Shown here: in pieces, positions 4,420 through 51,937 of the stretch
Layout: the number at the start of each line of letters is the position of its first letter
Numbering within the stretch: position 1 is the first letter of the stretch
Virus record (IMG/VR): IMGVR_UViG_3300042922_000712
Span: 1 to 51,937 of that record
Strand: one strand, 5' to 3'
DNA length: 51,937 nt
From: a virus
Notes under the pieces: generated by a model
The model's database searches: none
What the model saw: the letters and a program-made list of their open reading frames with translations, nothing else
Told to the model about the DNA's origin: nothing
Translations under genes and position numbers: made by a program

Positions 4420-4644
4420 CTATTTAAATTGATTAATAGCTAGAACCATTCCTTCTTTTACTTCTCTTTCTCCAAGCATATCATAATTAATCTCTCTGAT
4501 ACCTTCTCTAAATTCTGCAACCTCGATCCTATTATTACTACGGCAGAATTTTTCGGCTATTCCTTGCAATGTGTCATTTCCCAACACAGTATACTGTGTT
4601 GTAACTAGAGCTAATAATAGAAATTTAATAAATACTTTTTTCAT
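4420..4644 (-). CDS. Exported or membrane-anchored LysM-like mini-protein
   Basis: The start chosen is the ATG at 4642-4644 (MKKVFIKFLLLALV), eight bases after AGGAGGTT. An upstream frame has no such site. Residues 1-17 form a signal peptide or anchor. The remainder fits one LysM repeat: YTVLGNDTLQGIAEKF, a short middle segment, and VKEGMVLAI at the end. LysM domains bind the glycan backbone of peptidoglycan. At 74 residues this is only an anchor plus one repeat. It might modify the envelope of the infected cell. An early-type promoter lies at 4683-4694. Confidence 0.7.
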   Translation of the reverse strand: MKKVFIKFLLLALVTTQYTVLGNDTLQGIAEKFCRSNNRIEVAEFREGIREINYDMLGEREVKEGMVLAINQFK

Positions 4645-4670
4645 TACTATATAACCTCCTACAAATAAGA

Positions 4671-4705
4671 TATATTCATGGTTATAATATATAACCATGA
4701 ATATA
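4671..4705. repeat. Perfect 16-bp inverted repeat containing a promoter motif
   Basis: The arms at 4671-4686 and 4690-4705 are perfect reverse complements (tatattcatggttata and tataaccatgaatata) with a three-base loop. The early-type promoter core lies in the middle, so this is either an operator-like site or an AT-rich terminator for the gene at 4722. Confidence 0.6.
4683..4694 (-). promoter_or_regulatory. Early-type promoter motif
   Basis: The minus strand reads TTATATATTATA, then ACC and ATGAATA, an exact match to the window-wide consensus. The start of the LysM gene is 38 bases downstream. Confidence 0.6.
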
Positions 4706-4721
4706 TAAAATTACAAATCGT

Positions 4722-5549
4722 TTATTCCCATCGCTTTAGCATTATTTCTCTATCGTACTCTTCTTGATTATTATTCATCGCCTTTAAAGCATTTAATTTC
4801 CATCCTTCAGACATTCCCAAATCATCAGCGTGGAAATTCATGTATACCCAATTTGATTTTGCTAAATGTTTGTCATACATTTCAATATCAAATTTATCTG
4901 CTTTTCTTCTTATAGTTTCCAAAGCAGCATTGTATTCTTTTCCAACTGTGCTAGTAATAACAATATGATCTTCAGTATTAGAAGGATCTACATTTGCATC
5001 AGTATATTCCATATGTTCAGCATCATCATACCAATATAAATCTTTTTCATTTCCAGGATTTAATATTAGCCCTGGAAATCCATGGTTTCGTATATAAGAT
5101 GGAAGAGTATTATGCAATTCTGCTAAGCGAATATTGAAATGATTTAAATTATTTGCATTTATAAAAAATGCTCGTAATTGTCTTCCCCATAATAAATATA
5201 ATAACATTGTTGTTGTTTTATGAGATACCTGTCGACATCCAAGCCAATATATATTATACCCACTATTAAGAGCATATATTACAGCCATTGTAGCTGGAGT
5301 CAATTCAAATTTTTCCAAAACGTTACCATTAGGTATTCTTACAACTTCTCTAAAATAATACCATATATTATTCATAGACTCGTGTATAATTCTAGCTTTA
5401 TCACTATCTGTTAGAAATGGGTCATATGGATCTGGAAGTTTTTCTTCGCTCAATTGTTTTAGCATAAATAAATTATTTTTTATGCCCGACATTTTTAAGA
5501 ATTTGCTCATTTCCAAAAATGACTTATTTTTAGTATCAGTATTATACAT
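4722..5549 (-). CDS. Terminase large subunit-like ATPase domain, truncated and with altered Walker A
   Basis: The 275-residue product resembles the N-terminal motor of large phage terminases. The segment IYWLGCRQVSHKTTTM (near residue 105) sits where a terminase has its RQxGKT-type Walker A. LYWYDDAEHMEY near residue 170 looks like Walker B, and IVITSTVGK near residue 200 like the coupling motif. The end, EEYDREIMLKRWE, matches the linker that normally precedes the nuclease domain. No nuclease domain follows, and Walker A lacks the usual GKT, so it may be a degenerate paralogue or regulatory subunit. Function is inferred and moderately uncertain. Confidence 0.5.
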   Translation of the reverse strand: MYNTDTKNKSFLEMSKFLKMSGIKNNLFMLKQLSEEKLPDPYDPFLTDSDKARIIHESMNNIWYYFREVVRIPNGNVLEKFELTPATMAVIYALNSGYNIYWLGCRQVSHKTTTMLLYLLWGRQLRAFFINANNLNHFNIRLAELHNTLPSYIRNHGFPGLILNPGNEKDLYWYDDAEHMEYTDANVDPSNTEDHIVITSTVGKEYNAALETIRRKADKFDIEMYDKHLAKSNWVYMNFHADDLGMSEGWKLNALKAMNNNQEEYDREIMLKRWE

Positions 5550-7554: not shown

Positions 7555-8679
7555 CTATATCCATTCTATAGTAAACTTGATATTATCTATAATTTTATCT
7601 AAATAAACTTTAGTATTACTTAAATGCGATAATGCAACTTCGCAAGTTTTATATGCTTTATCGAAAGTTTCAGCTTCTTCATTGTATAATTGACCTATAC
7701 ATTTAACACAATTGTTTTCCAATATACAATTATCGCATTTAGAATCTTTAAATTTATTTAATATAGCAATAATCTTTTCCATATCAAATCCAATATCAAC
7801 ATTTCCCACAATTAAATTTTTTGTTTTATGGATAAACATATGACATGGATATATATTTCCATGAGTATCTAGACACGCCATATGAGATCCAGATCCACAT
7901 TGATAATCGTCTGTTTTTTTTCCTATAGATTTTTCTAATACATCTATATTTTTACAGATAGATTGAGCGTCGATACAAAATTCTTTATTACTGCCAATCA
8001 AATAATCAAATACTTCATAATATGATTTTTTTAATAGTTCCACATCATCTTTAGTCCACATGTCTTTAAAAGCAACACCGCAAGTAATTCTAATATTCTT
8101 TAATTCTTCTACTTGAAATTTTATAATATCTGGAATACTTGTTATATTATTATGGGCTATAGTAGTTTTTACAGTTTCTAAACTATATCGCTCTCTTGCC
8201 CATTCATAATTTGGCATAATATCTTTGAAAGATCCGCAGTCATTTGATTTATAAATTCTATTTTTATCATGTTCGCTTTCCGGTCCATCTATACTAAATC
8301 CTATAGAAAAAAAAGGATATTTATTTAAAAAGTCTTTTACTCTTTTTGTTCCTACTAATGTTCCATTTGTGCTAGCATGCATATGAAATTTACCACACTG
8401 CCCCCAATGATGGTCATATTTTTTTACTTTATTAAAAAAAGATTCCACTGCGCTTTCCAATAAATTCATTTCTATAAGCGGTTCTCCGCCTATAAAGTTT
8501 ATAACTATACTTTCCCTATCTTTTGTAAATGGAGAGGTGAACAATACGTCGAAATATTTATCAATATTTTCTTTAGTATTTATTACTTCCTTTTCCCCAT
8601 CAACGTAACAATAGCTACATTTAAGATTACATCTATTGCTAGTGTAAACCATTGCAGTAAACGGATATGTAAGATTCAT
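7555..8679 (-). CDS. Radical SAM/SPASM enzyme, putative peptide or protein maturase
   Basis: The 374-residue protein has the radical SAM motif CNLKCSYC (C17, C21, C24) and the GGEP motif in FIGGEPLIE near residue 64. A SPASM-type C-terminal region has conserved cysteines: CLDTHGNIYPC near residue 270, then CDNC, CVKC and a last Cys near 350. SPASM enzymes usually modify ribosomally made peptides or proteins. It is a close paralogue of the gene at 9295 (both have TSNRCNLKC and YCYVDGE) and is the third gene after the CX3 cysteine-array protein. Its start overlaps the stop of the gene at 8681. The substrate is inferred. Confidence 0.85.
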   Translation of the reverse strand: MNLTYPFTAMVYTSNRCNLKCSYCYVDGEKEVINTKENIDKYFDVLFTSPFTKDRESIVINFIGGEPLIEMNLLESAVESFFNKVKKYDHHWGQCGKFHMHASTNGTLVGTKRVKDFLNKYPFFSIGFSIDGPESEHDKNRIYKSNDCGSFKDIMPNYEWARERYSLETVKTTIAHNNITSIPDIIKFQVEELKNIRITCGVAFKDMWTKDDVELLKKSYYEVFDYLIGSNKEFCIDAQSICKNIDVLEKSIGKKTDDYQCGSGSHMACLDTHGNIYPCHMFIHKTKNLIVGNVDIGFDMEKIIAILNKFKDSKCDNCILENNCVKCIGQLYNEEAETFDKAYKTCEVALSHLSNTKVYLDKIIDNIKFTIEWI

Positions 8680-9294: not shown

Positions 9295-10410
9295 TTATAT
9301 AAATTTTATTGTATCTTTTATATTTTCTTTTAATTTATTAATAAAAATATGAGTTAATAATATTCCTATTTTTGTCAAATTGCAATTATTATATACTTTA
9401 TCAAAAGTATCATTTTCTGGATTGTATATTTGAGCAAAACATTTTCTGCAAATACTATTAAATCTACATTTATTACATTTAGCCGATTTTATTTTTTCTA
9501 AATTTGCATTAATTTTATTTATATCCAATCCAGTATCAACATGACCTATAGCAAATTTATTAATATTATTACTTGCTAATATCTGGCATGGATATATATC
9601 ACCGCTTGGATGTATGCATATTGTATATCTTGCAAATGAGCAGTTAAATAATTTTTTATAATTATTTTTTTTATCATAGTCATAATAATTTAAAGGTTTA
9701 AATAAATTTTTTATCGCAATTGTAAACTCTTTATTATCCATTATTAACTCATCTATGATTTTGCTCACTTGCATCTTGACACTTCTAGCATCGTCTTTAG
9801 AAAAATAAGCACTGCCATTTACATTAACTCCTATTGCTCTGGTTTTTAAAGTATTAAGCTGAAATGATAATATATCATATAGATCATCTACATTATTATT
9901 AGATAGAGTTGAATCAACTCTATCTATATTATATTTTTCTTGTATCCATTCAAAGTTAGAAATTACGTCATTAAATGAACCACAATTATTTTTATACATC
10001 CTATTTTTATCATGAATATTTTCTGGTCCGTCTAGGCTAAACCCAATAAAAAATGGATATTTATTTAAAAAATCTTTAACTCTTTTAGTACTAACTAAAG
10101 TGCCATTAGTGCTAGCCATAAAGCTAAAATTATTTAACCAATGATGGTTATACTGTTTAGCTTTATGAAAAAATTGTTCAATTGTATATTCTATTAGATC
10201 TAATTCGACGAATGGCTCCCCTCCAATAAAATTTAATTTAATTTCGTCCCTATCTTTAGTATATGGAGAAGTAAATAATATGTCTAAATATTTATCAATA
10301 TTTTCTTTAGTATTTACTACTTCCCTTTCTCCATCGACGTAACAGTAGTTACATTTAAGATTGCACCTATTACTGGTATAAATATAGCTATTTAATTTAT
10401 CATATTTCAT
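9295..10410 (-). CDS. Radical SAM/SPASM enzyme coupled to the cysteine-array protein
   Basis: The start is the ATG at 10408-10410 (MKYDKLNSYIYTSN), which overlaps the TGA of the cysteine-array gene as ATGA. The 371-residue protein has CNLKCNYC (C16, C20, C23), FIGGEPFVE, and a SPASM-like C-terminus with HPSGDIYPC, CNKC, CRKC and a terminal NNCNLTK. It is highly similar to the gene at 7555. Tight coupling to a CX3-repeat protein suggests it forms thioether or other crosslinks in that tail. This is inference from context. The reaction type cannot be read from the sequence. Confidence 0.85.
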   Translation of the reverse strand: MKYDKLNSYIYTSNRCNLKCNYCYVDGEREVVNTKENIDKYLDILFTSPYTKDRDEIKLNFIGGEPFVELDLIEYTIEQFFHKAKQYNHHWLNNFSFMASTNGTLVSTKRVKDFLNKYPFFIGFSLDGPENIHDKNRMYKNNCGSFNDVISNFEWIQEKYNIDRVDSTLSNNNVDDLYDILSFQLNTLKTRAIGVNVNGSAYFSKDDARSVKMQVSKIIDELIMDNKEFTIAIKNLFKPLNYYDYDKKNNYKKLFNCSFARYTICIHPSGDIYPCQILASNNINKFAIGHVDTGLDINKINANLEKIKSAKCNKCRFNSICRKCFAQIYNPENDTFDKVYNNCNLTKIGILLTHIFINKLKENIKDTIKFI

Positions 10411-10793
10411 TGCGATCCACATCCAGCACAACTCGTAGTGCAGCTTCCGCTACAATGAGTATAACATCCAGTTTGACACGTACCAGTACAATTTCCAGAA
10501 CAAGGATCTCTATAATTTACTATAGTAGTATTCAGTGTACCAATTTTACTATAAATATCTGTATCAGTGTTAATTAAATCTGTTATTTTTGCCCATAATG
10601 CGTTATCCCCATTTATTCTAGCTTGAGCTTCTGCCGTATCACCAGCTATTCTAGCTTGAGCTTCTGCCGTATCACCAGCTATTCTATCTTCTATTTCTGC
10701 ATATAATTCTATTTTCGTAGCTTTAGAATTTATTAAATTTTGCAAAGATGGAGCCAATTCATCATATGTAATTTTATCTTCTGCGAGAAACAT
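10407..10793 (-). CDS. Fibre-like protein with C-terminal CX3 cysteine array, probable radical SAM substrate
   Basis: The protein has 128 residues. Residues 5-20 carry the recurring EDKITYDELAPSLQNL motif of the phage's small fibre-like proteins. Residues 38-62 contain two exact 11-residue repeats (IAGDTAEAQAR) and a diverged third copy, probably a trimeric coil. The tail has eight cysteines at 98, 102, 106, 110, 114, 118, 122 and 125: six CX3 steps and one CX2. This resembles CXXX-repeat targets of radical SAM maturases. The stop codon overlaps the start of such an enzyme. I infer that the tail is crosslinked and displayed on the virion. Disulfides or metal binding are alternatives. Confidence 0.8.
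   Translation of the reverse strand: MFLAEDKITYDELAPSLQNLINSKATKIELYAEIEDRIAGDTAEAQARIAGDTAEAQARINGDNALWAKITDLINTDTDIYSKIGTLNTTIVNYRDPCSGNCTGTCQTGCYTHCSGSCTTSCAGCGSQ
10615..10680 (-). repeat. Two perfect 33-bp direct repeats in the cysteine-array gene
   Basis: Positions 10615-10647 and 10648-10680 are identical and encode the 11-residue coil repeat. Exact identity at DNA level means recent duplication or conversion. A third, diverged copy lies on either side. Confidence 0.9.
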
Positions 10794-21314: not shown

Positions 21315-22481
21315 TTATTTATATGGCAACTCCGGCATGCTATTTTCTACGTTCCAGTCTTCATTATAGTGATATACTCGCTTCACCTTTTCGATATCTA
21401 CGACATCGGCTTTATTATATTCTAAAAATATCTCTCTTTCTATATTTCTTAAAACACACGTTTGATATAACTTATTCTGCATATTGCCAGTTCTAAATAG
21501 ATTAGTCGCAGGACATTCGAAGCAATGTAAACTACTACATTGAGTATTATAACACATAGGAACCTCTTTATATTGATCTATGAAGGATTTTACTTTATCT
21601 CTATAAAATCCTTCTTCTATACTACCCATATAGAGTTCACAGCCATTAAATACTGCATCTTTACTAAAGAAACCACATGGTGCAATTTTACCATCCATTT
21701 CAATATATAAACTCCTACCAAGATGACGACAAGCTATAGATCTGAGTCTGTCTTTTTCTTTATCTAGACAATACTCAGTAAAATATAAAGCATCCCAGTT
21801 GGAGTAGGTAAAATTATATTCTAATTTTAGAGTTGCTATTTTTTCTAATTGAGCTGTAGCTTTTTCAATAAATTTTAAATCTCTATATTCTTCGCAATCT
21901 GTCAAGTAGTAATATTCTAGTTTATTGCATCCATTATCTAATGCATACTTAAAACTATCATAAAGCGTATCTACTGTATTTGGAGTTAATGCTATTCTAA
22001 TAAGTATATCATCTTTATATCTAGACCTTCCAATGATAGAGAGTTTATTATTAAAAAATAAATTATCGTACTTTTTATTTTTTGGCTTCCTAGAATTAGA
22101 TGAAGAAAATATGCCATCCCAGCTATATTTGCAGCCCCATGATCTAAGTACACCTTCATCCATTAATTCAATTAAACCTTCCATATTAGTACCATTGCTA
22201 ATAGTAGTAAAATTTATTTTAATATCTTTCATACGCTCTAATTTAGATAGCTTTTTATATGCATATCTAATATCATCACAAAATAAACTTGGCTCTCCTC
22301 CAGTAACCTTAAATTCTAAGTCTTCATCTAAAGGAAGCTTAGATAATAAATTAATCATATCATCATACTTATCAAATTTATTATCAATAGTTTTTGTATC
22401 ATACTTTTGAAAACAATATTCGCAGTCAAGATTGCAATATTGTGCTATCTTAAAAGTTACTGCTGTTATATTTGTAAACAT
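21315..22481 (-). CDS. Orphan radical SAM/SPASM-like enzyme
   Basis: The 388-residue protein has CNLDCEYC (C16, C20, C23) and an intact FKVTGGEPSLF near residue 62. Its C-terminal cysteine-rich region includes IEMDGKIAPCGFF and a dense cluster (MCYNTQCSSLHCFECP) before a last TCVLRNIERE. It is a clear paralogue of the protein at 25933, sharing SWDGIF, SRYKDDILIR or SKYKDDILIR, and the C-terminal cluster. Unlike the other radical SAM genes it has no cysteine-array protein next to it. The substrate is unknown. Confidence 0.8.
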   Translation of the reverse strand: MFTNITAVTFKIAQYCNLDCEYCFQKYDTKTIDNKFDKYDDMINLLSKLPLDEDLEFKVTGGEPSLFCDDIRYAYKKLSKLERMKDIKINFTTISNGTNMEGLIELMDEGVLRSWGCKYSWDGIFSSSNSRKPKNKKYDNLFFNNKLSIIGRSRYKDDILIRIALTPNTVDTLYDSFKYALDNGCNKLEYYYLTDCEEYRDLKFIEKATAQLEKIATLKLEYNFTYSNWDALYFTEYCLDKEKDRLRSIACRHLGRSLYIEMDGKIAPCGFFSKDAVFNGCELYMGSIEEGFYRDKVKSFIDQYKEVPMCYNTQCSSLHCFECPATNLFRTGNMQNKLYQTCVLRNIEREIFLEYNKADVVDIEKVKRVYHYNEDWNVENSMPELPYK

Positions 22482-25932: not shown

Positions 25933-26982
25933 TCACTCTCCACAATATAATTTTCTTTCAATATTACGAATTTTACATGGCTGAGATGCTTTGTACTCGA
26001 ATGTATCTCCAGCTCTATATGGTATTAATCTAGCACATTCGATACAATGTAAATTTCCACAATTAACATGATTACACTGATCGCAATTTATACAATTATT
26101 TATATTAATACTTTCTATTTTAGAATGGTCATACTGCTGAGAGATATCATCAAAATCAATGCTTGGCGGTTTATACTTATATCCATTACTATATGATCCA
26201 CACGGTAGTATCTTACCATATACGTCTATTTCTATAGAATTATATAATGATCTACACCATAGACGTTTTTTGGTTGTATTAGTGCTGTAGAATTCTGGCA
26301 TTGAGTTTATATTGAATATATTAATTCCATTACCATTATATTTATAAAGAGAATTTAATTCTTTTTCGAATATATTTAGAAAAATAGGATCTCTATATTC
26401 ATCGTTATCTATAAGAAAATAATACTCCCAATTAGAACATCCGCAATCTATAAGATATTCTATAGATTCCTTTTGATGAGATAATAATGTAGAGGTTAAA
26501 GCAGACCTAATTAGAATATCATCTTTATATTTAGATTTTCCTATCGATTCAATTGCTTTATTAAATAAAATATCATTATATTTTAAAGATTTAGATTCTC
26601 GTATATTCGAGCCAAATATTCCATCCCAACTCATGCTTGTATATTTTGGATCTAATATTCCTCTGTCTAATAAATCTAATATAGCTTCTATATTAGACCC
26701 ATTTGTATACAGCCCGAATTTTACATTAGTATCTTTATATCGTTCTATCTTTTTAAGTTTACTATAAGCCGTTTCTATAAGATTTGGAAACAAACTTAGT
26801 TCTCCGCTAGATACATTTATAAGTACATCTTGAGCTAATGGTGCATCTATTAAAAATTTCAGTAGATCGTCAAACCTACTGAATCTATCGTTTGACTTTC
26901 TAGCATCTTCAGTCAAAAAACAATACTTGCAAGATAAATTGCAAGTATGTAATAAATGTAGATTTATCCAATTTATGCTCAT
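25933..26982 (-). CDS. Radical SAM/SPASM-like enzyme with altered GGE motif
   Basis: The 349-residue protein has CNLSCKYC (C14, C18, C21). Where its paralogue at 21315 has VTGGEPSLF it has VSSGELSLF, so the first glycine and the proline of the GGEP motif are changed while the glutamate stays. The C-terminal cysteine cluster is strong: VYGKILPCGSY, NCINCDQCNHVNCGNLHC and a final PCKIRNIERK. The start overlaps the upstream stop as TAATG. It may have reduced or altered SAM binding. The substrate is unknown. Confidence 0.8.
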   Translation of the reverse strand: MSINWINLHLLHTCNLSCKYCFLTEDARKSNDRFSRFDDLLKFLIDAPLAQDVLINVSSGELSLFPNLIETAYSKLKKIERYKDTNVKFGLYTNGSNIEAILDLLDRGILDPKYTSMSWDGIFGSNIRESKSLKYNDILFNKAIESIGKSKYKDDILIRSALTSTLLSHQKESIEYLIDCGCSNWEYYFLIDNDEYRDPIFLNIFEKELNSLYKYNGNGINIFNINSMPEFYSTNTTKKRLWCRSLYNSIEIDVYGKILPCGSYSNGYKYKPPSIDFDDISQQYDHSKIESININNCINCDQCNHVNCGNLHCIECARLIPYRAGDTFEYKASQPCKIRNIERKLYCGE

Positions 26983-28013
26983 TAAATATCACCCAATTTT
27001 TTATAATAATTATTCAGATATGATTTGTACGATATGATAATATTCTGCAATCTATATTTATCAGCTGCACTTAAATCATTTAAAAACTTCTGTATAGTAT
27101 CAGCATATATCTTAACTACTTTACAGGTACTTTGCAAATAATATGCTTGCCAATCGTCACCATATTGATTATATCTTTCGTATCTACATCCACCATCGCA
27201 TAGCCATGAATATTTACATTTTATACAATCTTCATGCACACATGATTCTTGTACAGTTTGTAAATCAAATTCTTTTCTTTCTTGACTTAGAGCAGTACAT
27301 AAACTTTCATTACCATACGGATCTATAGTTATATATTTCCCAATATCACAACTAGCGAAAGTTTTATCCATGTTTATATAGGCAATTATTTTATTTAGAT
27401 GATCTGAGTACATCTTGTCCAAGTCAAATGTGAGTGGCAATTGTTTGGATAACTCATTATAAAAGTCTTGGGTGTATAGATCTCTATGAGCTATAACAAA
27501 TTGCCCACTTACTCCATATTTTTTTAACTCTTTAAATTTTTTATGAATATCATACATATGGTGGACGTTATTATTACTAATAACTGTTTTTATATCGAAC
27601 TCCAACCCACATGATATAGCGTACTCTATATTTTTATAAACTTCAAATGATATAGTATCACCCACAATATTAACTCTATTAGAATTGAATCCATCCCATG
27701 ATAATTGTATCTCATTTAATGGATATTCTTTATTAAACTCTATAAATTCTTTAAAATTTATAGATGTTGAAGTTACCACTTGAAATTTAATTTTTCTATA
27801 ATATTTTTTTACTATCTCTTGCATAAGATCTAATCTTACTAAAGGCTCACCTCCAAAGAATAAGATTCTTTGTGGCTTATATTTCTTTATTTTTGCATCT
27901 ATCATTTCTATAGACATACTACTAGGATTAGCCCTGTTGCGAATATAACAATATTCGCAACGATTTGGGCAAGATTCTGTCAGGAGTAAATATAATTCAG
28001 TATAATTGATCAT
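26982..28013 (-). CDS. Radical SAM/SPASM enzyme
   Basis: The start is the ATG at 28011-28013 (MINYTELYLLLTESC), overlapping the TGA of the HNH gene as ATGA. An ATG two codons earlier lies too close to the GGGAG site. The 343-residue protein has CPNRCEYC (C15, C19, C22) and an intact FFGGEPLVRL near residue 54. A SPASM region includes DPYGNESLC near residue 240, then CIKC, CDGGC and a final STCKVVK. It is the middle radical SAM gene of operon 2 and probably acts with its neighbours. The substrate is inferred to be the cysteine-rich protein at 29009. Confidence 0.85.
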   Translation of the reverse strand: MINYTELYLLLTESCPNRCEYCYIRNRANPSSMSIEMIDAKIKKYKPQRILFFGGEPLVRLDLMQEIVKKYYRKIKFQVVTSTSINFKEFIEFNKEYPLNEIQLSWDGFNSNRVNIVGDTISFEVYKNIEYAISCGLEFDIKTVISNNNVHHMYDIHKKFKELKKYGVSGQFVIAHRDLYTQDFYNELSKQLPLTFDLDKMYSDHLNKIIAYINMDKTFASCDIGKYITIDPYGNESLCTALSQERKEFDLQTVQESCVHEDCIKCKYSWLCDGGCRYERYNQYGDDWQAYYLQSTCKVVKIYADTIQKFLNDLSAADKYRLQNIIISYKSYLNNYYKKLGDI

Positions 28014-28882
28014 GACCATTCTCCCTTTAGGCTAGCTCTAATAGTATAAATTGTTCTATATAAGGAATCTAATCTATCTGTACTAGCAATATATTCTCTC
28101 CCATTCATAATAGCAAATATTTCTTTATCAGTTTTTTCTTGATAAATATATTTTTTGATTGTTTCTTTTTCTTCTTTAGAATAAGCATGTTTTTTACTAC
28201 TTCTATCAAAATTATACTGGCTAGAGATATGTCTCCAAGTATATCCACCACGAATGTCTCTAAGAAGAGTATGATTAGAATTATTTAGCTCCATACCAAA
28301 CCAGTTCATGATCTCAGTATTTGATTTACCTTTCTGAAACTCTTCACACAAATACCTAACGAAATTCTCATTAACAATTGGACGTTTATTTACAATGAAA
28401 GTATTTGTGCCATTATAAAATTCCCTAGCATGTTGATTATTAGCAGCAACTGTAACCCACTCAAGATTATTAGCAAAATTATTACGCTTATTTGTATCGA
28501 TATGATTAACTATTCTATTTGCGAAATCAATTGGCGGATTACAGAATTGATATGCAACAAGACGATGCACTAGAAACTTCTTACCACCAGCAACAGTTTG
28601 TAAAGTAACAGCCTGATAGTCACTATCAGCATCAGTATCATAATTAGTTAATATTACACGAGTAGTTGCGTTAAATATTATACCTCTAGTATTAATTAAA
28701 TACATACCAGGCTTAACCCCAGGGTATGTAATATATTGAAGCGCTTCGAAGAACTGCACAGGAACTAAAGAATACTGTCTTTCGATACCATCGCTATTGT
28801 TGTACTGTGAAGCAGGAATATTATTCTTATTCCTGCTATCAAATGGTACTCTCTCTACTATTGTCATCAATCCATTGCCCAT
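28010..28882 (-). CDS. HNH homing-type endonuclease
   Basis: The 290-residue protein contains FLVHRLVAYQFCNPP near residue 103, followed by VNHIDTNKRNNFANNLEWVT near 123. This is the classic HNH signature (His, then NH.D..K.NN...NLEWVT), preceded by a NUMOD4-like segment. The C-terminus has a helix-turn-helix-like region (SNTEIMNWFG and a second copy NREYIAST). Such enzymes are mobile genes that cut DNA at or near their own insertion site. It sits between the cysteine-rich gene and the radical SAM genes and interrupts that operon. It is not inside a visible intron. Confidence 0.85.
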   Translation of the reverse strand: MGNGLMTIVERVPFDSRNKNNIPASQYNNSDGIERQYSLVPVQFFEALQYITYPGVKPGMYLINTRGIIFNATTRVILTNYDTDADSDYQAVTLQTVAGGKKFLVHRLVAYQFCNPPIDFANRIVNHIDTNKRNNFANNLEWVTVAANNQHAREFYNGTNTFIVNKRPIVNENFVRYLCEEFQKGKSNTEIMNWFGMELNNSNHTLLRDIRGGYTWRHISSQYNFDRSSKKHAYSKEEKETIKKYIYQEKTDKEIFAIMNGREYIASTDRLDSLYRTIYTIRASLKGEWS

Positions 28883-29008: not shown

Positions 29009-29992
29009 TTATGACCATCCCCCACAATTTTGATTATGGCAAGTTCCACCATAGCAGCTTTGACATGATAACATGCAAGGTTTCTGACATGATACTTGGC
29101 ACGTTCTGCTACAACTGCCATTTGGATTCCACCAATCCTTATATGAATCTAGTGCTTGAGAAATGAGTCTTAAATTTGTAGCTATTGCTATAAATGTACT
29201 TGCATATATAATATCGCCTTTATTTACAGACGGTACAGCGTCTCCAGAAATAGATCCAGGAACTACTACGACTGCCTGTCTTTGAGTGCTACTGCATACC
29301 CAAACATATCCAAGATCTTCAGAAGAGCTTTCGCTTTTCCACCCATATTGTTTAACTCTATTAGGGCAACTTATAGATATATTACCACATAGCCTTTCAG
29401 AAAGACTAGTATCTGGAGTTTCTATTTCTGGACCTTCTTTAAATATTTGCTTTTTTGTTACGGTATAATAAGTTGGGTTTCCGTTTGCATCTAATACAGG
29501 AATAGGATTTCTAAATCCTGGAATCATAACAGCGTTTCCGCTAGCATCTACAATACCAACTCCAGTTACAGGATTTACCTTTTGCTGATCCAAGACTACA
29601 ACTTCTGCCTCTACTTTTATTATAGTATCTTGATATGGATAAGTGCATGTAATAATAGTCAGTTGACTAGAAGCTCCTCCGCACGTTCTTACCATTTCAT
29701 TGGTATATTTAATTACAGTATTTACATATGATGCATATATAGGAACGTCTACGCCTATAGACGCTCTTACTGTACTCATTTCATTTTCTTTAGCCGGATC
29801 TATAATACCGCTAAGTTGTTGTAATGGAGTACCATAGTTATCAGGATTGTTCATAATACGGTTTATAGAATCTCTTTCATTCATAGTTACCAATAATACA
29901 GAAAGTAAATATGATGTATCGGTTGCTAAAATTGCGTCTCCTCTAGCAACATCTTTAGGTTCTGTATATACTACGACTCCTCTATTAGCCAT
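29009..29992 (-). CDS. Virion-like protein with C-terminal eight-cysteine array, probable radical SAM substrate
   Basis: The 327-residue protein has an all-beta-looking body (PTVNKG-type loops, YVWVCSSTQRQAVVVV) without a known enzyme fold. It ends in a Gly/Cys-rich tail with cysteines at 294, 298, 302, 306, 310, 313, 318 and 323: four CX3 steps, then CX2, CX4, CX4. The first radical SAM gene of the operon overlaps it by eight bases. Number and spacing of cysteines parallel the protein at 10407, although the N-termini differ. I infer radical SAM crosslinking of the tail. Disulfides are unlikely in the reducing cytoplasm but possible on the virion. Confidence 0.75.
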   Translation of the reverse strand: MANRGVVVYTEPKDVARGDAILATDTSYLLSVLLVTMNERDSINRIMNNPDNYGTPLQQLSGIIDPAKENEMSTVRASIGVDVPIYASYVNTVIKYTNEMVRTCGGASSQLTIITCTYPYQDTIIKVEAEVVVLDQQKVNPVTGVGIVDASGNAVMIPGFRNPIPVLDANGNPTYYTVTKKQIFKEGPEIETPDTSLSERLCGNISISCPNRVKQYGWKSESSSEDLGYVWVCSSTQRQAVVVVPGSISGDAVPSVNKGDIIYASTFIAIATNLRLISQALDSYKDWWNPNGSCSRTCQVSCQKPCMLSCQSCYGGTCHNQNCGGWS

Positions 29993-31364
29993 TAATATTC
30001 TCCTTTCTGTCTAACTTTTTAGTCATCTCATCTAAGCTAACACCTTTCTTAGATAATTGATACGCTAAAATTATAGAAATCTTCGAATCTATATACTGTT
30101 TAAATGTAGGAAGAATGTTCTTTTTCCCAAGATTATCAACCATTTCCTTTAAATGCATAATTCTTGTAGTAAGAGTAAGACTATCATCTAGATCTGTCTC
30201 GCTATACAAAATATCTACATATTGCTTTAGTTTAAGATTTTCTTTTAAAAGATTAATCATCCTGTTTCTAATATTAGAAGCATTCATTAATTTTTCTCTG
30301 TATTTCAGAACTGCTTTAACTAAGGCAATGCTTGTTTTACAATGCCCAGATGATGGCTCATCATATATTCCAGTTTCTCGCATGTTTTGAGTTGGGCATC
30401 CGCCTTTACAAATAGATTTCCCAATACAATTATTACATTCTTCTTTTGGATATGATGCATGTATATCTTCTTTATTTAATTTAGTTTCATCCACTCCAGT
30501 ATAAAGATTCCCAATATATAAATCATCTTTGAATTTCTTTTCTGAAGTTGGTCCTTGATGGCATGGGTAGATATCTCCATTGGTATCGAATGCGCACCAT
30601 CTGTTAGAATAAATAGGACACATGATTGGATCGTCTATTTCTGGCTCTAAAACATTAGTTAAAATCTCATCTGTATTCTTAATAGAAATATTACGCTTAA
30701 TTGTATCATCATTTAACAAATCAACATAATACTCCATTAGCTGTTTATAATAATATTCTAATCTCATAGTATGTACAAAATCCCACTCAACGTCTGTTAC
30801 TGGCATTGGGCAGATATTATCAATACCCATATCGATAAGCATTTTAATACCATTTAATGCGTATTCTACATCTTCTGGAAGTATCGTCATTCTAGCTTCT
30901 ACAAATATAGCGAGCTTTCTATCTATAAGCTTTTTAAGATTAGAGTGCACAATATCAAAACTATCGCATCTATTTTTATCATGCACATATTTAATCCCAT
31001 CAATACTTACTAGCATCATAATAGAATTATCATCTATATATTCGAGCATTTCATCTGTAAGAATGGTAAGATTGGTAGTAATTCCATATCTCACTTTATA
31101 TTTCTTTTCATTACAATGATCTATTAATGCTTTGATAGTTTTCCAATTTAATAATGGCTCCCCTCCAAAAATATTAATAGTGAAATCGCCTATAGATTTA
31201 TCTACTTCCCTATATGATGCATCTATAATATCTATTGCAGTTTGAGGACTCATCATTTGCTCATTCTTATCATGCTCAAAACAATAAGAGCAATTAAGAT
31301 TACAATTATTTGTCACATTAATTGTAATAGAATCGCAGTTATATACCTCTTTGAATTGTTTCAT
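29985..31364 (-). CDS. Radical SAM/SPASM enzyme coupled to the eight-cysteine protein
   Basis: The 459-residue protein is the longest radical SAM gene here. It has CNLNCSYC (C21, C25, C28), INIFGGEPLLNW near residue 64, and a full SPASM region: CAFDTNGDIYPCHQGP near 250, then CNNC, CKGGCP and GHCKTS. Its layout is like SPASM peptide maturases and anaerobic sulfatase-maturating enzymes. A C-terminal helical extension (residues 365-459) is unique within the window. The stop overlaps the start of the cysteine-rich gene by eight bases, which marks the likely enzyme-substrate pair. Confidence 0.88.
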   Translation of the reverse strand: MKQFKEVYNCDSITINVTNNCNLNCSYCFEHDKNEQMMSPQTAIDIIDASYREVDKSIGDFTINIFGGEPLLNWKTIKALIDHCNEKKYKVRYGITTNLTILTDEMLEYIDDNSIMMLVSIDGIKYVHDKNRCDSFDIVHSNLKKLIDRKLAIFVEARMTILPEDVEYALNGIKMLIDMGIDNICPMPVTDVEWDFVHTMRLEYYYKQLMEYYVDLLNDDTIKRNISIKNTDEILTNVLEPEIDDPIMCPIYSNRWCAFDTNGDIYPCHQGPTSEKKFKDDLYIGNLYTGVDETKLNKEDIHASYPKEECNNCIGKSICKGGCPTQNMRETGIYDEPSSGHCKTSIALVKAVLKYREKLMNASNIRNRMINLLKENLKLKQYVDILYSETDLDDSLTLTTRIMHLKEMVDNLGKKNILPTFKQYIDSKISIILAYQLSKKGVSLDEMTKKLDRKENING

Positions 31365-50242: not shown

Positions 50243-51937
50243 CTAACCAGCATATTTAGCTTTAACAGCATAGATTCTATCTAACTGTTCTTTGCTATAA
50301 TTATCTCTTGCAAGGTTTATAATACCATTTGCATTGATAAGTATATCTTTAAATACGTTAACTTGATTGTTAAATCTACCATCGTTCTTAGAAATCATCA
50401 TAGAATTTCTAGGATTAAAACATAGCATAGCGGCTTCCCAAAATGCTTTGTTTGGAATATACAATATATTCAAGCAATCTCCCCTTATATTCACACAGGT
50501 CGCTAATCCGTGCAGTTCTCTTATGAACTTCCCTACCATTACGATAGGATAGTAGACTATATCTTCTCCCTCATAACTAAGGGAGCCTTCTTTTTCGCAC
50601 TCCGCTTGGAGGCTACGATAATCGCTTCTAACTACCGTACAAGACGAGTAGCCGCGCTTTCTCTAGTCGTTGAACGTTTTCCCATATACATGGGCACTTC
50701 GCTGCTGGTTATACATTTCGCTTGAGTGAGACTTAGAGTTTCCCCATATCTCATCTTCTAGATTTTTTCTGACTTTCGTCGGCATTCACGTTTATCTTTA
50801 CAGATTACGTTGTAGCTCTAGAAGCATTAGCAATTTCCAGCAATTAAAAAGGATACCACTCTATATTACTATATAGTGGGACTAAGCCGTTAGGCTGTAA
50901 TCAAAATCGGCGGCAAATGGATTTAAGATTTGTAATGGCATACTTAACGTATAATCATCATTAATACCAATACATCTCATAGCCATAATAGAGCCGTAGT
51001 TAATAGTAGGTCTAAACGTTCACGCTGAGCACTAATCAGCGCAGTTCTCGTATGAACTTCTCCAGTTTTTCTCTGGATGAGCAGATCATATCATCATCCC
51101 AGAGGGATGCCTCTCGCTTCGATTTAAGGATTTCTCCACCCGTTTGGGCTCTACTCTACTTGCTTCGTGTACTATTTCTAGTACCTTATTTTCATGGCGT
51201 ATTTCAGCCCCTATAGCTTTCGATGATCGTTGGACGAGTTCAGTTAAAAAGTCATAATCTTTACACTCCATTAATAAAGATTAGATATAGCTGGAAGTAT
51301 ATATCAAAAGACTATAATTTCTAAACAGAACTCGCTGCTGATTGTACATTGTCATTGATCCTTAGCACCTTTCATTTCATATGAAAGGCTTTTATTTCAG
51401 CGTAGATCATCCTAAATATTTTTTCCATCTTTCGACAGCATTCACGCTTGAGATCACTCTCTACGTTTTAGCTATTTAGGCTTTAGCACGTCCCAGCAAT
51501 TCAAGAGGTAGTTTTTGCAATACGTTGCCGTATTACCGAACCCTATCGATTCCGATTAATTAGAACATTTATTCCATTATTAGCTCTAATTAAATTTTCT
51601 ATAATTTCTCTAACTCTGGGGTTTGGAACCACCTGTGATTTATACCAAATCATATATGCCTTAGCATAGGAGATATTAAATGAACTAGCTAATATATTTA
51701 TTATAGTTTGTTGTAATAATTCCACTAAACTATAATAAGATAATTTAACCTCATCAATTCTTAATAGAGGATCTGGAATGATAACCAATCTAGAAGTAAA
51801 GCTACATCTTCCACCAATCAGCATTCTTACAGATCCCTTTTTATTTGAACAAATGTTTTCTATTTCTGCATAAAGTTTATTATACTTTTCCTGCATATCC
51901 CAAAGAAGAGTATTTCTATACTTTTTATTTCGGTACA
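50243..51937 (-). CDS. RNA polymerase beta-prime subunit, N-terminal half, split by two group I introns (5' end off window)
   Basis: The coding parts, read on the minus strand, are exon 1 51937-51549 (open to the right edge), exon 2 51010-50900 and exon 3 50482-50243. Joined, they give LIGGRCSFTSRLVIIPDP, INRN|PTINYGSIMAMRC and NPFAADFD|GDCLNILYIPN. These match the beta-prime segments around SARSVI, NRxPTLHR and NADFDGD of cellular polymerases. The three aspartates of DFDGD hold the catalytic Mg2+. Exon 2 is exactly 37 codons and the frame stays open throughout. The protein ends 80 residues after the motif, so the rest of beta-prime must be a separate gene, as in phiKZ-type phage polymerases. 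Confidence 0.88.
50483..50899 (-). ncRNA. Group I intron between the D and G of the DFDGD motif
   Basis: The intron is 417 bases. On the minus strand the 5' exon ends GAT, and its last U pairs with G in the guide (GAUU with the AGUC stretch in GGCUUAGUC), as the group I rule requires. The core carries AATTGCTGGAAATTGC, GTTCAACGACTAGA and AAGATATAGTCT, which are group I P, R and S elements. It ends in G before GGAGAT. Removal restores FDGD in frame. There is no endonuclease frame inside. Confidence 0.85.
51011..51548 (-). ncRNA. Group I intron in the NRxPT segment of beta-prime
   Basis: The intron is about 538 bases. The 5' exon end GAAU pairs with the guide GGUUC, giving the U-G pair at the splice site, and the start of the 3' exon (CCUA) pairs with the adjoining UAGG (P10). 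The core has GAATTGCTGGGACGTGC, GTCCAACGATCATCG and GATGATATGATC. The 3' end falls on A rather than the usual G, so it may be off by up to six bases. Its 3' end (AAGTTCATACGAGAACTGC) is nearly the same as that of the first intron, so the two are related. Confidence 0.78.

Follow-up and report, generated by a model that had tools for sequence, protein, structure and literature searches.

Among the closest described systems, Bacillus phage AR9 (and PBS1; KU878088, g270/g271) harbors an intron, with a core of group I type, within the DxDGD codons of the same gene as the one considered here, coding for the N-terminal part of the beta' subunit of the non-virion RNA polymerase, and the AR9 record annotates this gene as two joined pieces. 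AR9 has one intron, at DYDG/D (here and below, a slash within a motif marks an insertion point or splice site), 3 nt downstream of the site of the second intron of our locus; it is 897 nt long and carries an intact sense-strand HNH endonuclease, unlike the introns described here. The same gene is interrupted at DYDG/D in Staphylococcus phage vB_StaM_PB50 (OR770614), where group I core elements are also present, but this interruption is 1728 nt long, codes for a 504-aa homing endonuclease and reaches only 28 bits with the covariance model of the clade described below. A putative group I intron lies at conserved aspartates of the phage RNA polymerase gene gp210 of PhiPA3 (PMC11620839); it differs from our case in that it interrupts the beta and not the beta' subunit and codes for an active HNH endonuclease that is deployed against PhiKZ (PMC11620839). 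In zeta-group crAss-like phages, whose polymerase is very divergent, the RNA polymerase genes have interruptions inside DxDxD, and splicing could not explain all of them according to the authors (PMC7886860). Finally, introns of Twort-like and other Firmicutes phages (e.g., in nrdE of phage Golestan) share similarity in intron-core DNA with the present ones but lie in other host genes.

The window analyzed here is a 51,937-nt stretch of viral DNA (IMG/VR record IMGVR_UViG_3300042922_000712), one contig of an incomplete genome. Translation and searches of positions 50243-51937 identified, on the minus strand, the gene of a beta'-like N-terminal subunit of a jumbo-phage-type RNA polymerase with two group I introns, numbered in the order of transcription. 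The relative IMGVR_UViG_3300028048_000077 (G002; locus L143) serves as the main reference.

Gene identity, exon junctions and intron cores

The features of the window are listed below, with the evidence for each in brackets.

51549..51937, minus strand: 3' part of exon 1, gene of the N-terminal beta'-like subunit (phrog_2987; 127-nt overlap with the adjoining contig; PDB 7s01)
51538..51552, minus strand: P1 of intron 1, exon GAAU/C with GGUUC, U.G at the 5' splice site (helix pairing; same P1 in G002)
51011..51548, minus strand: intron 1, group I, 538 nt, at the NRN/PT site, probable terminal A (clade model; helices; same-site intron in G002)
51542..51545, minus strand: guide UAGG of intron 1, pairing with CCUA of the 3' exon, P10 (sequence; the G002 pair is ACUUGG with CCAAGU)
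51274..51324, plus strand: intron 1, P6 loop, antisense relic (..IRYSWKYISKDYNF stop) left from the C-terminus of an HNH homing endonuclease (tblastn; shuffles; translation)
51224..51228, minus strand: 5' strand GAUCA of intron 1 P7, partner UGAUC at 51088-51084 (helix pairing)
50900..51010, minus strand: exon 2, 111 nt, PTINYG...AADFD (sequence and alignment with relatives)
50483..50899, minus strand: intron 2, group I, 417 nt, at DFD/GD, terminal G (Rfam RF00028; clade model; helices)
50664..50668, minus strand: 5' strand GACUA of intron 2 P7, partner UAGUC at 50559-50555 (helix pairing)
50600..50653, minus strand: intron 2 pairings at the places of P7.1 (GGCUAC with GUAGCC) and P7.2 (CUCC with GGAG) (helix pairing)
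50243..50482, minus strand: exon 3, GDCLNILY... to the stop (sequence; phrog_2987)
28010..28882, minus strand: free-standing HNH endonuclease gene, candidate trans homing enzyme (PF13392; kinship with the G002 endonuclease)

The identity of the gene, its exon junctions and the intron cores follow from the sequence and from comparison with intron-free relatives. The spliced protein matches the profile phrog_2987 (RNA polymerase beta subunit; E 1e-35) and, in the PDB, the beta' of AR9 (7s00/7s01; E 4e-37) and the N-terminal beta' of PhiKZ (7ogp; E 4e-19). The gene starts beyond the window, on IMGVR_UViG_3300042922_000418 (G001; L001:5182), which shares 127 identical overlapping bases with the window end and is probably the adjoining contig of the same assembly. 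The full spliced product has 518 residues and ends past the DFDGD domain, with its stop at 50243. In family, DxDGD motif and split after the domain it agrees with the N-terminal beta' subunits of jumbo phages, in which the beta' subunits are split after the DxDGD-bearing domain (PMC7598289). Near a beta-subunit gene, the adjoining contig also has two small ORFs (L349:17735-18663, plus strand) that contain DYDGD and DFDGD motifs and have no PHROG match.

The rejoined reading frame is ...VLINRN/PTINYGSIMAMRCIGINDDYTLSMPLQILNPFAADFD/GDCLNILY..., exon 2 running from PTINYG to NPFAADFD. The stretch from NRxPT to DxDGD counts 42 residues, as it does, gapless, in the intron-free loci L149-L152 and L154-L156, so that the in-frame junctions NRNPT and ADFDGD expected by the original prediction are borne out at both sites. 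NRxP[TS]...DxDGD is uninterrupted in 54 of the 80 IMG/VR relatives, R and P being separated by a single residue in every case, and isolates free of introns at the beta' sites include Goe21, phiR1-37, BpSp, Madawaska and LPJP1. The exons of the window and of G002 are open and share 59% identity.

A covariance model of the clade, covering the region from R to P9.2 and built on 36 other phage introns with the window left out, gives 114.3 bits to intron 2 (E 4e-23) and 111.1 bits to intron 1 (E 2e-22). With the Rfam model Intron_gpI (RF00028), a search of the region only reports intron 2 at 57.9 bits (gathering threshold 50) and intron 1 at a sub-threshold 20.3, and Rfam scans over the whole window report neither. 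Neither the clade model nor motif scans revealed other introns of the clade in the window or in about 48 kb of the adjoining contig. P1, P2, P3, P4, P6 (P6a in intron 2), P7, P8, P9, P9.1 and P9.2 are paired in both introns, and a U.G pair stands at both 5' splice sites, that of intron 2 being GAU/UA with UAGUC. The P7 helices of the two introns differ by two compensatory changes and keep the guanosine-binding G-C pair (the first pair); across the clade, the version of intron 2 occurs in about 93 of 103 introns and that of intron 1 in two. Pairs 1-4 of P9.2 covary across the clade (98-99% paired versus 71-80% when shuffled). Subgroup IA has P7.1 and P7.2 between P7 and P3; matching stems are present in intron 2, and intron 1 has stems in this region that are not assigned to either. 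The P10 pairing of intron 2 is poor. On this body of pairing and model evidence, both are real group I introns in a phage polymerase gene, related to each other and equipped with the splice-site pairs and core elements that had been anticipated. The intron formerly called the first was correctly placed between DFD and GD, but it is the second in transcription order, the gene being on the minus strand.

Insertion sites in relatives

Both window introns lie at very conserved sites, NRN/PT and DFD/GD, as had been pointed out. Among IMG/VR relatives, the beta' gene is interrupted at seven or eight positions, three of them inside DxDGD:

NRN/P (NRN-P site): G002
NRNP/T: L164
Within the isoleucine codon of NRNPTI: G003, G004
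Within the serine codon of GYGS: G005
Within the phenylalanine codon of DFDGD: G006
DFD/GD, same site as intron 2: L161
DFDG/D: G002, G003, probably G004
Further intron near IDQ: G004

Insertion is thus common among the relatives, and the window case alone is one more of a known kind; what adds interest is the dense packing of insertion sites near the active site of the polymerase, together with the A at the end of intron 1 and its endonuclease relic. The catalytic motif of the RNA polymerase of these phages has been invaded repeatedly, in codons a few bases apart, and as a consequence gene callers miss or split a core polymerase gene.

Some features were observed in individual relatives. The DFD/GD intron of L161 (IMGVR_UViG_3300029305_005724, 4499-4938) has a P6 loop containing a stretch with tRNA-like ends (GGCAGGA...TCCTGCCACCA), in which ARAGORN finds no tRNA and Rfam gives the intron only (64.4 bits). 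The intron near DFDG/D in G004 (L144, IMGVR_UViG_3300028591_000326) has the P7 of intron 1, GAUCA with UGAUC, and none of its possible junctions combines a U at the 5' splice site with a terminal G. In Listeria phage LPJP1 (MZ422438), an intron of the clade (L002:9011-9410; 112 bits) sits between rpoB, as annotated, and the hypothetical gene that follows, and rpoB is probably split there by an unannotated intron.

Origin of the two introns and loss of an endonuclease

The original prediction read the nearly identical 3' ends of the two introns as a sign that one copy had moved to a second site of the same gene. This is not supported: the common 3' module GAAGTTCATANGAGAACTGC was found by motif search in at least 120 IMG/VR stretches, and the likeness of the 3' ends is, by this comparison, that of a module conserved across a large clade of phage introns. 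In a BLAST ranking among the fetched loci, a sample partly gathered by the shared 3' motif, intron 2 comes 41st among the matches of intron 1 (91 bits, the best having 191) and intron 1 comes 55th among those of intron 2 (91, the best having 154), and for each of them at least 39 matches elsewhere are better than its neighbor. Intron 1 also appears to have a site-specific history of its own. A pattern search for the NRN/P P1 gave mostly chance matches, the only real one being in G002, whose NRN/P intron has a P1 identical to that of intron 1 (GGAAT...GGGTTCGG), and in the tree a branch of 24 introns (support 98/84) contains both of these; intron 2 belongs to no branch of this kind and is apparently outside it.

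The G002 NRN/P intron harbors an intact antisense HNH_3 endonuclease in its P6 loop, with a NUMOD4 match slightly below the cut-off. The antisense relic of intron 1, with its stop, lies at the same place of the P6 loop as the end of the G002 endonuclease. It is matched in tblastn by the C-terminus of the free-standing HNH protein of the window (E 0.007) and by that of the G002 intron endonuclease (E 0.39); of 2000 dinucleotide shuffles, none scored as high in either comparison. Given this match to the C-terminus of the G002 enzyme, the P6 loop of intron 1 would formerly have held an HNH endonuclease gene in antisense, most likely lost by internal deletion, only the last codons being left. The earlier view that neither intron contains an endonuclease is therefore right as to an intact homing endonuclease gene, which is absent from both, but overlooked the relic. 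A sense-strand ATG-ACT-TTT-TAA in intron 1, also considered as an endonuclease remnant, was dropped in favor of the antisense one. Present-day mobility, if any, would require a trans-acting enzyme, as in T4-like phages, where introns without a working endonuclease home in trans (PMC3984707). The candidate is the free-standing HNH gene, which lies about 22 kb from the introns and whose product shares 29.5% identity over 176 aa with the G002 intron endonuclease (E 2e-15).

Reverse splicing or recombination might have brought a copy of one intron to the second site of the gene, which would be consistent with the membership of both introns in one clade and their shared stretches (71% identity over 102 nt, 81% over 42 nt). 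An AU test does not reject the window introns as a sister pair (p 0.28), the DNA tree of 66-67 introns being too weak to settle sister relations. The two beta' introns of G002 are each other's best match found, with a P3-P6 domain 86% identical over 144 nt, which suggests that in this group the introns of a gene can exchange sequence. Against such a move in the window stand the P7, P8 and guide sequences, which are unlike between introns 1 and 2, and the endonuclease-bearing same-site relative of intron 1, whose relic it shares. Because the 3' module is clade-wide and each intron has so many better matches elsewhere, a jump within the gene is weakened by these comparisons and unsupported by the 3' ends, and we consider it quite improbable. 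Most likely the two introns came separately, as related introns homing into highly conserved codons.

Terminus of intron 1 and predicted splicing

If the product is NRNPT, the last base of intron 1 is A; intron 2 and the same-site G002 intron end in G. A terminal G (omega G) is almost universal in group I introns, and an rRNA intron of Coxiella burnetii is reportedly a bacterial case with terminal A. The guide and the 3' exon have changed together between the window (UAGG with CCUA) and G002 (ACUUGG with CCAAGU), which puts the 3' splice site before CCT, so that intron 1 appears, from this co-change, to end in A and not in G. The terminal A could make its splicing weak; it could also be an assembly error, as the base is known from one contig and an exact search of IMG/VR found no second copy of the intron 1 end.

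Intron 1 would have an ordinary terminus if it ended in G (UUUAG/A), with the 5' cut one base upstream and NRKPT as product, in line with the rule of a terminal G and with the four-base spacing after P9.0 that is commonest among site-mapped introns. This would however put an A-U pair in place of U.G at the 5' splice site, weaken P10 and introduce K where relatives show N, Q, A or P, and is in our opinion very improbable. The lack of a terminal G and of its endonuclease in intron 1 could also be taken as decay, the gene being a pseudogene or expressed in pieces while another polymerase takes over its function. Such jumbo phages generally code for two RNA polymerases (PMC7598289), which lends this some plausibility and for the same reason makes an uninterrupted second beta' copy, once proposed as counter-evidence to splicing, a weak test. 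Decay is nevertheless hardly credible, as every core helix is intact, the exons are open and conserved relative to G002, and exon 2, of just 37 residues, carries part of the catalytic motif, so that separate pieces could not simply work.

We thus hold with high confidence to the reading in which a beta' N-terminal gene carries two group I introns of the same clade, predicted to be spliced to give an uninterrupted subunit, which most likely arrived separately and the first of which has most likely lost its endonuclease. Each intron would fold within the transcript, an external guanosine would cut just behind the P1 U.G pair (GGAAU/ and GAU/), and the exon so released would attack the 3' splice site, whose position is given by P9.0 and P10. 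Translation of the joined mRNA would then yield the uninterrupted subunit. More speculatively, and rather unlikely on present evidence, the active-site codons of the polymerase might be a contested site, where endonuclease-bearing introns attack overlapping positions and endonuclease-free ones persist by breaking the recognition sites of their neighbors, shielding the gene in co-infection; the A-ending intron 1 may also splice slowly and delay polymerase production. Competition of intron against intron at one motif becomes directly testable here.

Elsewhere in the window, a 275-aa ORF (4722-5549, minus strand) gives a partial-length match to terminase large subunit profiles and may be a split or short terminase, and the radical SAM family phrog_1802 is represented by six genes in 52 kb (7555-8679, 9295-10431, 21315-22481, 25933-28019, 29985-31364, minus strand).
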